A stretch of DNA of 64,000 bases. Origin: Acidobacteriota bacterium. Its GTDB lineage: Bacteria > Acidobacteriota > Vicinamibacteria > Vicinamibacterales > CAVVIG01. The stretch lies in contig JAFDVO010000017.1 in assembly GCA_018268955.1 (NCBI GenBank), positions 1 through 64,000 on the forward strand, given 5' to 3'. Of the stretch, positions 3,200 to 8,511 are shown piece after piece. Positions within the stretch are counted from its first letter, which is position 1. The number at the start of each line of letters is the position of its first letter. Position numbers and translations under genes: made by a program. The notes under the pieces are model-generated. The model was given only the letters and a program-made list of their open reading frames with translations. It was not told the DNA's origin and made no database searches.

Positions 3200-4405
3200 T
3201 CAGGCGCCGGTGTGTTCGCAGTCGATCGCGGACTGATCACCGGTGACGAGGCGCAGCGGTACGGTGAGTGGCGTGCGATGCGGCTCCATCGCCGGAGCGG
3301 GCGGAGGCACGGCGACGTAAGCCGTTGGTTCGTAGGCGCATAGCGGGTCTGAGCCGAGCGCGTTGCCCGTTGCGGCGTAGGCACGGGAGCGCGAGCCGCC
3401 GCAGGTCGTGCGGAACTCACATGCGCCGCACTTGCCTTCGAGCCGAGCCGCATCCCTGAGCATGCGGAACAGCGCATCGTCGCGGTACACGTCGGCAAGG
3501 GACGCGGTGCGGACATTTCCGCGCGTCATCGGCAAAAAGCCACTGGGACAGATCTGTCCGACGTGATCGACGAACACGAACCCGTTCCCGTCGCCGACGC
3601 TTCGCGTGGCGCGGAGCTGGCGGCGCCGTTCAACGGCACGTGTCGGCAGGCCAGCCGCTTCGCGCGCCTGTTCTCGCTGCTGCACGACGCGCTGGTAGTG
3701 GGGGGCCTCGGTGGTCTTGATCCCGAACGGTGCCGTGAGAGAGAGGTCGTAGAGATACCCGAGCACGTCCTCGCACTCGCTGGCGGAGATCTGGTCGAGG
3801 CTGGCGCCGCGCCCGGTCTGCACGAGGAAGAACACGGCCCACAGCGTGATGGGGAGCTCCGACATGCGTGCCGCCATGGCGTGCAGGTGCGGAAGCGTGA
3901 TGCGGCTGACGGTCGTGTTGATCTGGAGCGGCAGGTCCAGCGCGATCGCCGACTCGATGATGCGCATCGTCCAGTCGTACGAGCCGCGCACGCGACGGAA
4001 GGCATCGTGAGACGCCGCGTCCGGACCGTCGAGGCTGACCGCAATGCGCGACAGGCCCGCATCCTTCAGCTCGGCGAGCCTGGCTGGCGTCGCAGCCGCG
4101 GTGCCGCTTGGCGTGAGCGCAACGGTGAGGCCCTGATCGGAGGCGTGGCGCACGAGGCGGGCCAGGTCGGGCCGTCGCATCGGGTCTCCGCCGGTTAGCA
4201 CGAACAGGGGCGGCGGCGTGCCGAGCCCACGCACCTGATAGATCAACGCGAAGCCTTCCTCCGTTGTCAGCTCGTGCGGGTCACGCCTCGCGATCGCGTC
4301 GGCCCGGCAGTGCACGCACGCGAGTGCGCATGCGCGGGTCGTTTCCCAGATGACGAGGAAGGGTGTCTGGTCGAAGGCCGTGGGGAACAGGGGCGGTGCC
4401 GGCAT
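3200..4405 (-). CDS. Radical SAM/SPASM domain protein (BA_1875/TIGR04053-like)
   Basis: A 401-residue radical SAM protein. The cluster motif CALACVHC at about residues 27-34 binds the SAM-cleaving 4Fe-4S cluster. LTGGDPMRR (SAM-binding GGDP) and SLDGPDAASHD follow. A C-terminal SPASM-type region with CGACEFRTTCGG would bind an auxiliary cluster. The family resembles haem-related radical SAM enzymes (AhbD/NirJ), but the substrate cannot be told from sequence. The promoter has the same palindrome and GACACT spacing as the NO-reductase/RIC promoters, so it is probably co-regulated with NO detoxification. There is no Shine-Dalgarno: GACACT ends six bases before ATG 4405, so the mRNA is probably leaderless. 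Confidence 0.85.
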   Translation of the reverse strand: MPAPPLFPTAFDQTPFLVIWETTRACALACVHCRADAIARRDPHELTTEEGFALIYQVRGLGTPPPLFVLTGGDPMRRPDLARLVRHASDQGLTVALTPSGTAAATPARLAELKDAGLSRIAVSLDGPDAASHDAFRRVRGSYDWTMRIIESAIALDLPLQINTTVSRITLPHLHAMAARMSELPITLWAVFFLVQTGRGASLDQISASECEDVLGYLYDLSLTAPFGIKTTEAPHYQRVVQQREQAREAAGLPTRAVERRRQLRATRSVGDGNGFVFVDHVGQICPSGFLPMTRGNVRTASLADVYRDDALFRMLRDAARLEGKCGACEFRTTCGGSRSRAYAATGNALGSDPLCAYEPTAYVAVPPPAPAMEPHRTPLTVPLRLVTGDQSAIDCEHTGA

Positions 4406-4438
4406 GACCGCAGTGTCGCGCGTCGGCGACAGCGTTCA

Positions 4439-4454
4439 TATGACGGCGGTCATG
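4439..4454 (-). promoter_or_regulatory. Crp/Fnr-type operator of the radical SAM gene
   Basis: The core ATGAC-GGCG-GTCAT (4440-4453) is a palindrome in its five-base arms. Its centre (4446.5) is 41.5 bp upstream of the A of the ATG at 4405. GACACT lies at 4417-4412, 21 bases after the 16-bp site. Arm sequence and spacing match the norZ/ric site at 7661-7676, so the same regulator probably binds both. The position is the one used by class II Crp/Fnr activators. Confidence 0.65.
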
Positions 4455-4465
4455 TCACGGAAGTG

Positions 4466-4644
4466 GGGGACTGGGGACCGGGGACTCGGAACTCGGAGCT
4501 GGCGACTGGCTGGGAACTCGGAACTGGGGACTGGGAACTCGGAGGTGGGGGACCGGGAACTCGGCGCTGGGGACTCGGACCTCGGAACTCGGAGCTCGGA
4601 TGGAGGGCACAGATCCGGGGGCAGAGGTCAGAGGTCAGAGGGGT
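4466..4644. repeat. Degenerate 7-bp tandem repeat (GGRACTC type)
   Basis: About 19 imperfect heptamers such as GGGGACT, CGGAACT and CGGAGCT, followed by AGAGGTC copies. It fills the gap between the radical SAM promoter and the 3' end of the regulator gene. No coding sense; one of many period-7/8 arrays in the window. Confidence 0.8.
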
Positions 4645-4653
4645 CCAACTCCC

Positions 4654-5340
4654 TCATGCGTTCGCGATCGCCTCGAGTGATGCGGTGTCGATAACGACGA
4701 AGCCGTCTTTCTCGGTGCGAACGATGTCGTCCTTGCCCCAGCGGCTCATGATGCGGATGCAGGTCTCAATCGTCGTGCCGGTCATGTCGGCCAGTTCCTG
4801 CCGCGAGAGCGGGAGCCCGACGAAGGCGCCGTCGGTGTGCGGACGGCCGATGTCCTGGGCGAGCTTCAGGAAGAGCCGCGCGAAACGGGCTTCCACCCGT
4901 CCGCCGGAGAGTTCTGCGAGGCGCTTGGTGAGCTCGATGAGCCGGAGCGTGAGGCCCGTGAGGATGCCGCGCACCAGCGTCGGATACTGTTCGAGCAGGG
5001 AGAAGAACGTCGTGCGCGGGATCAGGATGCAGGCCGTTTCCTCCATCGTGATCGCGGAGGCTGGAAACGGCCGCCCCTCATAGACGGCGACGGCGCCGAG
5101 CGGTTCGCCGGCGCCGAACACTTCGAGGATCACTTCCTTGCCGCTCGGCAGCATCTTGACCACCTTCACGCGGCCGGTCGCCACCGAGTAGAAGAAGTCC
5201 GACGGCTCGCCCTCGGCGAAGACGGTCTCGCCTCGGGCGAACTGCCGGACGCGCGCGACGCTTGCGACGCGCTGGCGATCCTCCGCGGACAGCCGCCTGA
5301 AGCTGGGTGTCGCGCGGAGGATCTGGTCGATGTCGGTCAT
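4654..5340 (-). CDS. Crp/Fnr family transcriptional regulator (DNR/NnrR-like)
   Basis: A 228-residue regulator starting at ATG 5340. An N-terminal cyclic-nucleotide-fold sensor (about 10-125), a long dimer helix and a C-terminal winged HTH (about 165-215; LSRQELADMTGTTIETCIRIMSRW) are visible. The recognition helix keeps the Glu and Arg that read the TGA core in Crp/Fnr sites. Only two cysteines are present and there is no N-terminal Cys cluster, so it is not an Fe-S FNR; a haem or redox NO sensor of DNR type fits better. Its ATG overlaps the norZ stop (ATGA), so it is co-translated with NO reductase and is the likely reader of the ATGAC-N4-GTCAT sites at 4439 and 7661. An overlong upstream reading frame into norZ was discarded. 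Confidence 0.88.
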   Translation of the reverse strand: MTDIDQILRATPSFRRLSAEDRQRVASVARVRQFARGETVFAEGEPSDFFYSVATGRVKVVKMLPSGKEVILEVFGAGEPLGAVAVYEGRPFPASAITMEETACILIPRTTFFSLLEQYPTLVRGILTGLTLRLIELTKRLAELSGGRVEARFARLFLKLAQDIGRPHTDGAFVGLPLSRQELADMTGTTIETCIRIMSRWGKDDIVRTEKDGFVVIDTASLEAIANA

Positions 5341-7598
5341 GCCACCTGGTGTGCAGGCTTCTTCTTCATGGTCGGGGCCGGTGCCTGCTGATACGAGTAC
5401 CCCTGCGACAGGCCCACCAGGAAGATCACGAGTGCGATGGAGCCCGCCGCGAAGATGGTATCGCCGAATGCCCGCATCCACCTCAGCGTGGTGATGGTGT
5501 CGCCAGCGAGGAACTCGGCGCTGCGCGCGTACCAGTAGCCGTGCTCGACCGAGGCCCAGGTCTGCATCAGGCCGACGGGCAGCAAGCTCAGCGTCACCAT
5601 CGCCAGCAGGCCGATGTTGATCGTCCAGAAGGCGAAGCGGATGAGCCCCTCCTTCCACACGCGGTCTGGATGCATCGCGCGCAGGCAGAAGAGCGTCAGC
5701 CCCATGCCGAGCATGCCGTAGACCCCGAACAGCGCCGCGTGGCCGTGCACCGGCGTCGTGTTCAGCCCCTGCATGTAGTACAGCGCAATCGGCGGGTTGA
5801 TCATGAATCCGAAGAGGCCCGCGCCAACGAGGTTCCAGAAGGCAACGGCGACGAAGAAGTAGATGGGCCACCGGTACTTCTCGACCCACGGCGCCGAGCC
5901 GGACAGCTTCAGGTTCTCCCACGCCTCGTAGCCGACGAAGAGCAGCGGCACGACCTCGAGGGCGCTGAACACGGAGCCGAGCGCGAGCACCACGGTCGGC
6001 GTGCCCGAGAAGTACAGGTGATGCAGCGTGCCGATGATGCCGCCAGCCAGGAAGATGGTGCCGGCGAGCACGGTCGCTTCACCGGCCGTGCGCAGGTTCA
6101 CCAGGCCAAGCCGTGCGAACAGGAAGGCGATCACCACCGTGGCGAACACTTCGAAGAAGCCTTCCACCCAGAGGTGGACCACCCACCAGCGCCAGTACTC
6201 GGCCACCGCGATGTTCGTGTGGCGGCCGTAGCCCAGTGCCGCGCCGTAGAAGCCGGCGATGGCGATCGTCGCGATGAAGAGCAGCGTGAGGATGGGCTTC
6301 TGCTCTCCACCCTGGCGCAGCGCGGGGACGATGCCACGCGCCATGAGGCCGAGCCACAGGAACAGGCCGATGAGCAGGGCGATCTGCCAGGCGCGTCCGA
6401 GGTCGATGTACTCGTAGCCGCTGTGGCCGAACCAGAACCACAGGGAGTCGGGGAGCATCTGCTTGATGCTGAGCCACTGCCCCGTCATCGAGCCGGCCAC
6501 CACGACGAGCAGCGCGCCGAAGAGGACGTTCACGCCGAAGCGCTGCCACTTCGGCTCGAAACCGGCGACCGCGGGTGTGATGTAGAGCCCTGCGCCGAGC
6601 CACGCCGTCGCGATCCAGAAGAGCCCGAGCTGCACGTGCCACGTGCGGACGACCGAGTACGGGAGGAACGAGGCGATCTTCAGCCCGTAGAAGCCGTCGC
6701 CTTCGACGCCGTAGTGCGCGGCGATGACGCCCATCCCCATTTGCGCCAGGATCAGGGCGGCGACGATCCAGAAGTACTTCACGAGCGCACGCTGTGAGGG
6801 CGTGGACATGGAGCCGAGCAGCGGATCGTCGGCGGGGATGTCGGCCATCGGCGGCTCCTGCTTGCGTGACGCATACCACGACGCCATCAGCCCGATGCCG
6901 CCGAGCAGGAGGATGATGCTGACGCCGGTCCACACGACCGCTTCGCCGGTGGGCCGGTTGCCCACGAGGTCCTCGTGCGGCCAGTTGCTCGTGTACGTAA
7001 TGTCTGCGCCCGGCCGGTTGGTCGACGCGGCCCATGACGACCAGAATAAGAACGCGGCGAGCTGGCGCGCGCGGGTGGGATCGGTCAGCGTGCCTGCGGG
7101 AATCGCGTACTCGGTGCGGCCGTTCCTGAACAGCTCGGCGTAGTAGGCGGTGTTCGCCGCAATGGCCTCGGCGCGAACGTCGGAGATCGTCAGGCGACGT
7201 GAGGTGGGATCGTACGTGTTGGTGCGAGCCTCGGTGACGAGCCGCTGCCGAAGCGCCGCCTGCTGCTCGGCGGCTGCCTTGTCATAGGCCATCCCGAATT
7301 GCGCGGCGCTCCAGCGGTCCAGCACCTGCACAGCCTCGCGATGCAGCCAGTCAGCGGTCCAGTCCGGCGCGACGTAGCTGCCATGGCCCCAGATCGAGCC
7401 CTGCTCCATGCCGCCCATCGACTGCCAGACGTTCTGGCCTGCCTCGATGTCCGCCCCGGTCATCACGAGGGCGCCGCTGGTGGTGCGCACGTCACCCGGA
7501 ATCGGCGGCGCCATCTGGTAGATGCGCAGGCCCGCCCATCCCAGGACGGCGAACGACAGAACGATGACCGCGGCGAACGCGGTCCACTTGCTTCTCAT
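5337..7598 (-). CDS. norZ: Quinol-dependent nitric oxide reductase (qNor)
   Basis: A 753-residue membrane enzyme reducing 2 NO to N2O with quinol electrons. The N-terminus has one membrane helix and a long periplasmic domain (about 35-215) with the qNor signature GADIEAGQNVWQSMGG. The haem-copper-type core of about 12 helices follows (about 230-740). His-bearing helices include WHVQLGLFWI, VVHLWVEGFFEVFA, GTLHHLYFSG and HGHAALFGVYG. Length is normal for the fused qNor. The start is set by GGAGG eight bases upstream. It overlaps the regulator gene by four bases and is divergent from ric. Expected role is NO detoxification, since no nitrite or nitrous oxide reductase is in the window. Confidence 0.95.
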   Translation of the reverse strand: MRSKWTAFAAVIVLSFAVLGWAGLRIYQMAPPIPGDVRTTSGALVMTGADIEAGQNVWQSMGGMEQGSIWGHGSYVAPDWTADWLHREAVQVLDRWSAAQFGMAYDKAAAEQQAALRQRLVTEARTNTYDPTSRRLTISDVRAEAIAANTAYYAELFRNGRTEYAIPAGTLTDPTRARQLAAFLFWSSWAASTNRPGADITYTSNWPHEDLVGNRPTGEAVVWTGVSIILLLGGIGLMASWYASRKQEPPMADIPADDPLLGSMSTPSQRALVKYFWIVAALILAQMGMGVIAAHYGVEGDGFYGLKIASFLPYSVVRTWHVQLGLFWIATAWLGAGLYITPAVAGFEPKWQRFGVNVLFGALLVVVAGSMTGQWLSIKQMLPDSLWFWFGHSGYEYIDLGRAWQIALLIGLFLWLGLMARGIVPALRQGGEQKPILTLLFIATIAIAGFYGAALGYGRHTNIAVAEYWRWWVVHLWVEGFFEVFATVVIAFLFARLGLVNLRTAGEATVLAGTIFLAGGIIGTLHHLYFSGTPTVVLALGSVFSALEVVPLLFVGYEAWENLKLSGSAPWVEKYRWPIYFFVAVAFWNLVGAGLFGFMINPPIALYYMQGLNTTPVHGHAALFGVYGMLGMGLTLFCLRAMHPDRVWKEGLIRFAFWTINIGLLAMVTLSLLPVGLMQTWASVEHGYWYARSAEFLAGDTITTLRWMRAFGDTIFAAGSIALVIFLVGLSQGYSYQQAPAPTMKKKPAHQVA

Positions 7599-7660
7599 AT
7601 AAGTCCTCCGGTGTCTCGGCTAGTGACATCCGCAGTGTCTGACGCCCGTCCCGCTCGCGC

Positions 7661-7676
7661 TATGACGCGCGTCATA
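7661..7676. promoter_or_regulatory. Bidirectional Crp/Fnr-type operator between norZ and ric
   Basis: TATGACGCGCGTCATA is a perfect 16-bp palindrome. On each strand GACACT begins 21 bases after the palindrome (7639-7634 on minus, 7698-7703 on plus). If GACACT is the -10, both transcription starts (about 7627 and 7710) put the site at exactly -41.5. One operator thus appears to drive both divergent genes. Confidence 0.75.
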
Positions 7677-7761
7677 CCGCTCGCCAGTGAGATGCCAGAC
7701 ACTCGACGCATGGCAGGGCGCCGACCGAGGCGCGGCTGCCGGGAACCTGAGAGGTGGAATC

Positions 7762-8511
7762 ATGACGTCCCGATTCGCCGCCGCCACGCTCGGCTCGATC
7801 GTCGCCGACGACTTCCGCGCGGCGTCAGTGCTCGAGCGATTTGGCCTGGACTTCTGCTGCGGCGGCAAGCGCACGCTCGACGAGGCCTGCGCGCTGCGCC
7901 AGGTCGATCCCGCCGACGTGGAGGCGGCTCTTGGCCAGCTCAGCGGGCCCGTCTCCGCCGACGCCCCAGACGCGAGCTGGGCGGCCGACGAACTGACGCG
8001 GGTGATCGTGCGCCGCCACCATGCGTACATCCGTGCACAGGTGCCAGTGATCACGGGCCACCTGGCACGGCTGACGGCGGTCCACGGCGAGCGTCACCCC
8101 GAGCTGCACACGATCAGGCAGCACTTCGCGCAGATCGCGGACGAACTGCAGATGCACCTGATGAAGGAGGAAGAGATCCTGTTCCCGTACATCCGCGCGC
8201 TTGCGGCAGCGGCGGAGCAGGGCACGCCGCCTCCGCCGAACATGTTCGGCACCGTCATGAACCCGATCCGCATGATGGAGGCCGAGCACCAGAGCGCCGG
8301 GAACGAACTCGAGATCGTGCGGGCGCTCACCCACAACTTCACGGTGCCAGCGGACGGCTGCGCCACGTATCGCGTGTGCTTCGAGGAATTGTCGGCGTTC
8401 GATCGCGACCTGCGCCTGCACATCCACCTCGAGAACAACATCCTGTTCCCGAAGGCGCTCGAACTCGAATCGGCTCTGGTGGGAGCGCCGGTTGCGCGGC
8501 GCGGTCGATAG
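7762..8511 (+). CDS. ric: Iron-sulfur cluster repair di-iron protein RIC (YtfE/ScdA)
   Basis: A 249-residue protein that repairs Fe-S clusters damaged by NO or oxidants. The N-terminal ScdA/DUF542 domain carries FGLDFCCGGKRTL (about 27-39). A hemerythrin-like domain follows with di-iron ligands in RRHHAYIRAQ, HLMKEEEILFPYI, MEAEHQSAG and LHIHLENNILFP. The start ATG 7762 follows GAGAGGTGG; a longer in-frame start at 7687 would lie upstream of the ribosome-binding site and before the predicted transcription start. Divergent from norZ and sharing its operator, so both should be induced by NO. Confidence 0.93.
   Translation: MTSRFAAATLGSIVADDFRAASVLERFGLDFCCGGKRTLDEACALRQVDPADVEAALGQLSGPVSADAPDASWAADELTRVIVRRHHAYIRAQVPVITGHLARLTAVHGERHPELHTIRQHFAQIADELQMHLMKEEEILFPYIRALAAAAEQGTPPPPNMFGTVMNPIRMMEAEHQSAGNELEIVRALTHNFTVPADGCATYRVCFEELSAFDRDLRLHIHLENNILFPKALELESALVGAPVARRGR

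Follow-up and report, generated by a model that had tools for sequence, protein, structure and literature searches.

A CRP/FNR-type regulator encoded in the norZ operon of an acidobacterium very probably governs, through class II promoters, a circuit that answers to nitric oxide (NO) or anaerobic nitrogen oxides. This is meant as an explanation of the locus as a whole, in which we infer binding, the direction of regulation, the NO signal, leaderless translation and autorepression from the DNA. The stretch analyzed, here called the window, comprises positions 1-64,000 (forward strand) of contig JAFDVO010000017.1 in assembly GCA_018268955.1, from an Acidobacteriota bacterium of the lineage Vicinamibacteria; Vicinamibacterales; CAVVIG01. 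The host's own genome (4.77 Mb) is labelled G000, and 162 Vicinamibacterales genomes formed the order-wide comparison set.

In the proposed circuit, a homodimer of the regulator would bind TATGAC-N4-GTCATA and act as a class II activator: the site at -41.5 would replace the -35 element, and RNA polymerase would be recruited to a -10 element at a distance of 21 bp. The divergent norZ-crp and ric promoters would share one such site, a second would drive the gene for a radical SAM protein and a third, elsewhere in the genome, a DUF3079 gene; at the shared norZ/ric site, two polymerases probably could not be loaded at once. The inducing condition would most likely be NO or anaerobic nitrogen-oxide respiration, because the circuit supplies norZ for NO reduction and ric for repair of the damage, to which relatives add NosZ and respiratory cytochromes. 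The regulatory loop would be positive in this organism, and autorepression would be expected in those relatives whose ric-facing site lies against the regulator start.

The features of the locus are listed in Table 1. A first-pass annotation of this DNA had reported ATGAC-N4-GTCAT palindromes at 4440-4453 and within 7661-7676, and both were found there, with the cores ATGACGGCGGTCAT (4440-4453) and ATGACGCGCGTCAT (7662-7675). It had further reported GACACT exactly 21 bases after the 16-bp site in three directions, and the coordinates agree for all three readings (4417-4412 and 7639-7634 on the minus strand, 7698-7703 on the plus strand). The norZ/ric palindrome can be used both ways, as had been claimed, with GACACT at 21 bp on each strand. 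We placed +1 by geometry at the seventh base after the hexamer (six bases between), and at the norZ, ric and radical SAM promoters the center of the site lies 41.5 bp before this predicted +1. The predicted leaders of norZ and ric hold Shine-Dalgarno-like sequences.

Table 1. Genes and predicted promoter elements of the circuit (window positions, unless a contig is named)
Feature	Position	Strand	Basis or remark
Radical SAM/SPASM protein, TIGR04053	3200..4405	(-)	455.9 bits vs NCBIfam equivalog cut-off 395
-10 element GACACT, radical SAM gene	4412..4417	(-)	Predicted +1 at 4405
Radical SAM operator CATGAC-CGCC-GTCATA	4439..4454	(-)	Genome composite scan
CRP/FNR-type regulator, predicted site reader, helix TTIETCIRIMSRW	4654..5340	(-)	Domains, co-occurrence, invariant reading residues
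norZ, single-chain NorB-type nitric oxide reductase	5337..7598	(-)	PF22085 and PF00115
-10 element GACACT, norZ-crp promoter	7634..7639	(-)	Predicted +1 at 7627, 29-nt leader
norZ/ric shared operator TATGAC-GCGC-GTCATA	7661..7676	strandless	Center -41.5 for both divergent promoters
-10 element GACACT, ric promoter	7698..7703	(+)	Predicted +1 at 7710, 52-nt leader
ric, iron-sulfur cluster repair di-iron protein	7762..8511	(+)	TIGR03652 222.5 bits vs equivalog cut-off 204.7
DUF3079 protein, 68 aa, Cys-rich	G000:C16:63163-63366 (L068)		Pfam 2e-31

By profile search, norZ encodes a NorB-type NO reductase fused to a cytochrome-c-like domain, and NCBIfam/Pfam profiles relate the TIGR04053 enzyme to the heme b synthase AhbD and to NirJ. 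The reading frames of the regulator and norZ share 4 bp (ATGA, 5337-5340), and co-transcription is therefore expected. Degenerate tandem repeats of 7, 14 and 21 bp (GGAACTC / GGGGACT) occupy positions 4466-4641, from the end of the regulator gene to the radical SAM operator.

Motif scans were run with the reversed pattern as a control. Taken alone, the palindrome was at chance level: two copies were found in the window versus 1.29 expected (at most one mismatch allowed), and five in the whole genome, with no -10 element required, versus four for the control. The composite TGAC-N4-GTCA-N23-GACACT has three perfect matches in 4.77 Mb, which are the norZ, ric and radical SAM readings. A relaxed form, ATGAY-N4-RTCA-N24/25-ANNNT, has four matches in the genome and none in the control; the fourth, again with GACACT, lies at G000:C16:63372-63413 on the minus strand, six bases upstream of the ATG of the DUF3079 gene, which is the only other gene in the genome with a complete promoter. 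The remaining palindrome copies (on C33, C55 and C56) have no -10 element at class II spacing and look internal to coding sequence.

The same design recurs across the order. In G001, which belongs to the same genus, the norZ/ric palindrome is kept and the DNA between site and -10 is altered, with both -10 elements (CAGACT) still 21 bp away. Over the 162 genomes, ATGAC-N4-GTCAT with this spacing and ANACT gave 22 matches versus 0 for the control, while TATGAC-N4-GTCATA with no -10 requirement occurs in 62 genomes and its reversed pattern in 2. Thus, the earlier claim that the arrangement is unlikely by chance stands for the composite, but not for the palindrome copies by themselves. DNA was then fetched around most palindrome sites for column statistics. 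Since these sites were picked by the palindrome alone, the spacing that emerged is independent evidence. Only T22, A23 (z 14.7) and T27 (z 13.2) dominate the base composition after the site (286 directions), which corresponds to TAnnnT starting after 21 bp, and a small excess of A is seen at columns 34-35, the predicted +1. The hexamer nAnnnT stands at a spacer of 21 in 109 of 290 directions and of 22 in 42 of 290 (other spacers, 0-14). At least one direction of 129 of the 145 palindromes carries it at 21 or 22 bp (control offsets, 8-20), and 22 of the 145 carry a -10 at class II spacing in both directions. The element that the first-pass annotation had reported at 21 bp thus recurs across the order, with GACACT being what a more general -10 hexamer, TAnnnT/nAnnnT, looks like here.

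In class II CRP/FNR promoters, the site is centered at -41.5, there is no separate -35 element and the -10 is of the sigma-70 type. Given a fixed distance of 21 or 22 bp between site and -10, the center falls at -41.5, and therefore the promoters described here are of this class. The column statistics showed no -35-like enrichment between site and -10 across the order, as expected for class II activation. All three features (center at -41.5, a -10 present, no -35 required) were thus found, with +1 predicted from geometry. Unlike usual class II promoters, these have their own half-site and reading residues, targets predicted to be leaderless and, in the both-direction cases above, a single site for two divergent promoters. 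In three genomes the operator occurs in tandem copies about 45 bp apart (G006:C257:16141-16260, G003:C49:1874-2037 and G011:C36:10258-10422), located between the radical SAM gene and a gene read in the opposite direction (cytochrome c in G006 and G003), each copy being spaced for a single direction.

The regulator, a protein of 228 aa, belongs to the CRP/FNR superfamily (PF00027, 7.8e-22; PF13545, 1.3e-14), and its AlphaFold model has the CRP fold (mean pLDDT 79), with which a fold search agrees. It scores below the cut-off of every named NCBIfam regulator, and PDB and fold searches returned generic CRP relatives with no hint of a signal. Orthologues with 56-100% identity, clearly apart from paralogues, are present in 59 of the 162 genomes. 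Palindrome and orthologue occur together in 56 genomes (Fisher p 1e-32, uncorrected for phylogeny), the palindrome without the orthologue in six and the orthologue without the palindrome in three. That the norZ-linked regulator reads the site, as first proposed, is supported by this co-occurrence, which covers 56 of the 62 palindrome genomes. This Acidobacteriota-type regulator is also present in public records whose titles name Bifidobacterium breve, Acidimicrobiia and Cyanobacteria (L302, L349 and L351), and these titles are probably wrong.

We searched 763 kb of DNA around 75 named relatives for perfect xTGAy-N4-rTCAx palindromes and counted all of them by half-site. In this census, ATGAC was found 46 times and all others together 22 times (TTGAC once, TTGAT never), and ATGAC did not occur in the reversed control. 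In 48 of 48 aligned orthologues, CRP position 180 is matched by Ile or Val, 181 by Glu, 184 by Ile and 185 by Arg, and the reading helix of the clade is IETxIR. Together, these data suggest that the regulator represents a clade of CRP/FNR proteins with a DNA specificity of its own. Previous work connected the amino acid at position 180 with the third base of CRP-type sites, Arg going with G and Ser or Pro with T (PMC1274295); the predicted pairing of Ile with A is a new point on this rule. In two more distant Acidobacteria (L359 and L360; about 50% identity), the helix is TQETAIR rather than TIETxIR and ATGAT-N4-ATCAT lies beside the regulator, which hints that the fifth base of the half-site varies with the residue preceding Glu.

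The first-pass annotation had set the half-site apart from those of FNR and Crp. Census and reading residues agree with this, but the nearest known half-site is neither of these; it is the TTGAC of delta-proteobacterial and cyanobacterial HcpR, one base away (PMC1274295). The HcpR1 motif is wyTTGACnnnnGTCAArw in both groups (PMC1274295, PMC545781). Like HcpR, the regulator is of the CRP/FNR type without the FNR cysteines and has a 14-bp palindrome with central TGAC-N4-GTCA and NO-related targets; HcpR of Synechocystis is likewise divergent from norB (PMC1274295, PMC545781). Unlike HcpR, the first base of the half-site is A instead of T, position 180 is Ile instead of Ser or Pro, and the targets are ric, TIGR04053 and DUF3079 genes instead of hcp and frdX. 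Identity with HcpR1 was rejected on site and target: HcpR1 goes with a TTGAC-N4-GTCAA or TGTGA-type site and has hcp as its core target, and here TTGAC occurs once in the census and hcp is not among the named targets. DNR and NnrR, denitrification regulators of Proteobacteria, also control NO reductase, NosZ and related genes (PMC1274295), whereas DNR uses the FNR box TTGATnnnnATCAA and occurs in a different host lineage; DNR (PDB 3dkw) is a weak match to the regulator (52.7 bits), behind CRP, GlxR and NtcA.

FNR itself was excluded because the regulator has two cysteines instead of the four required for the FNR cluster, and because TTGAT-N4-ATCAA is missing from the census. The first-pass annotation had already noted the lack of Fe-S cysteines and the overlap with norZ. 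CRP was excluded because the cAMP-contacting Glu and Arg are absent (GELSIFDPGPRTSSA aligns to GAVAVYEGRPFPASA of M. tuberculosis CRP), because none of the 48 orthologues has Arg180, and because the half-site is not TGTGA. Neither a cAMP nor an Fe-S nor an invariant His ligand was found in the sequences of the regulator and its orthologues.

The commonest target in the order is ric, with 18 of 19 ric directions at spacer 21 or 22; in 24 of 59 genomes, no more than 4 kb separates ric from the regulator. Further targets with both site and -10 are genes for a GltD-like flavoprotein (15), cytochromes c (11), TIGR04053 proteins (7), NosZ (5) and a NapH-like 4Fe-4S protein (5), with smaller counts for cytochrome b, a B12-radical SAM protein, hemerythrin and norZ; a porin is also among the targets in relatives. 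TIGR04053 genes above the cut-off are present in 24 genomes, about ten of them carrying the site, and in several genomes the distance between the radical SAM gene and the regulator is about 1-2.5 kb. The site is found upstream of DUF3079 genes in G064 and G105 as well. For norZ, direct control is predicted in this genus and, with norZ located behind ric, in G020. More distant norZ genes showed no such site in the stretches covered, and the idea that the site generally controls norZ was therefore rejected. Of the genes upstream of which the design was to be sought in relatives, ric and TIGR04053 conform, in support of placing the radical SAM enzyme in the regulon, but distant norZ genes do not, and ric, not norZ, is the conserved core of the regulon.

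The starts of downstream genes in relatives were set by codon statistics rather than annotation. In the window, transcription of the radical SAM gene is predicted to start on the A of its own ATG. In all seven sited TIGR04053 genes with a spacer of 21 or 22, the ATG lies 5-7 bases after the hexamer, and +1 would therefore fall on or beside the start codon. ATG triplets also peak at the predicted-start columns (14 and 13 versus a mean of 3.4). The radical SAM and DUF3079 mRNAs are thus predicted to be leaderless.

Autoregulation appears to differ between genomes. Here, the regulator gene rides on norZ, and positive autoregulation may be expected. In about a dozen relatives, the site is some 10-22 bp from the regulator start codon, in many cases with an ACAAT-like -10 about 7 bp past the site, and 13 of 14 directions into the regulator have no class II spacing. 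A site abutting the start in this way should block the regulator promoter, so that autorepression is likely in these organisms. One could extend this to all sites and suppose that the regulator mainly represses by blocking polymerase, but this is most improbable, since ric, norZ, radical SAM, nosZ and other genes have the -10 fixed at 21-22 bp and no -35, which fits activation. It is also very unlikely that a different CRP/FNR paralogue reads the sites. Relatives do hold paralogues of about 26-43% identity, some beside a second ric; however, the presence of the site tracks the orthologue and not these proteins, the site is often directly upstream of the orthologue, and the paralogues examined carry other reading helices (YTVSR or VETVVR). 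A mere coincidence of a short palindrome with GACACT would be in line with the chance-level counts of the bare palindrome, but has next to no probability in view of the composite counts in genome and order and the spacing statistics, and chance spacing was rejected on these counts.

The nature of the signal deserves separate consideration. It is possible, though rather unlikely, that site and promoter are real but that what the regulator detects is oxygen or redox state, for instance by way of Cys104, in which case the regulon would be one of anaerobiosis that incidentally holds NO genes. Cys104 is nearly invariant (41 of 48 orthologues), there is no invariant His among the 48, and the targets in relatives include cytochromes, the GltD-like flavoprotein and the porin besides NO genes. 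On the other hand, the four targets in this genome include the NO-tied norZ and ric, and ric is the commonest target as well as the commonest neighbor. Both HcpR and DNR sense NO by way of bound heme, the ligands of which are poorly conserved, with Met serving in HcpR (PMC12750200), and ligands vary across the superfamily; the lack of an invariant His is therefore no bar to heme-based NO sensing of the DNR/NnrR kind. Sensing of NO by the regulator is thus plausible, and the target set argues for it.

The class II circuit for NO or anaerobic nitrogen-oxide response is apparently undescribed in the literature searched, in which we found no ATGAC-N4-GTCAT motif, nothing on NO regulation in Vicinamibacter, no paper naming TIGR04053 and one incidental mention of DUF3079; a meta-regulon study of CRP/FNR proteins included no Acidobacteria. 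The first-pass reading holds in substance; additions to it are the fourth promoter, that of the DUF3079 gene, the coincidence of two start codons (radical SAM and DUF3079) with the predicted +1 and the sites at the regulator start. For the large, mostly uncultured Vicinamibacterales, the analysis connects genes of NO handling and anaerobic respiration with a DNA motif, a promoter architecture and a predicted regulator, and places NosZ, the N2O-consuming enzyme, of several relatives under the predicted circuit. The half-site beginning with A, together with the invariant reading residues, makes the rule of PMC1274295 testable at a new point, and the -41.5 geometry allows transcription starts and leaderless mRNAs to be predicted from sequence alone. 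The analysis also links the TIGR04053 and DUF3079 families to nitrosative or anaerobic stress. A bolder and quite tentative reading, which we would not favor at present, is that the regulator is the first member of a distinct family of NO-responsive CRP/FNR proteins in Acidobacteriota (ATGAC-N4-GTCAT, IETxIR, no Fe-S or invariant His) and that TIGR04053 and DUF3079 proteins are new leaderless NO-response functions, the former perhaps a heme-modifying or heme-repair enzyme and the latter perhaps a small Cys-rich metal protein.

In addition to the norZ-linked regulator, CRP/FNR paralogues with the YTVSR or VETVVR helix (about 30-36% identity) are located beside a second ric and, in several genomes, beside a DUF3079 gene (G140:C17, G142:C18, G046:C33, G087:C10, G029:C1, G060:C94 and others, including L288, L296 and L299). 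Paralogue and second ric form a parallel regulator-ric module, presumably with a different DNA motif.
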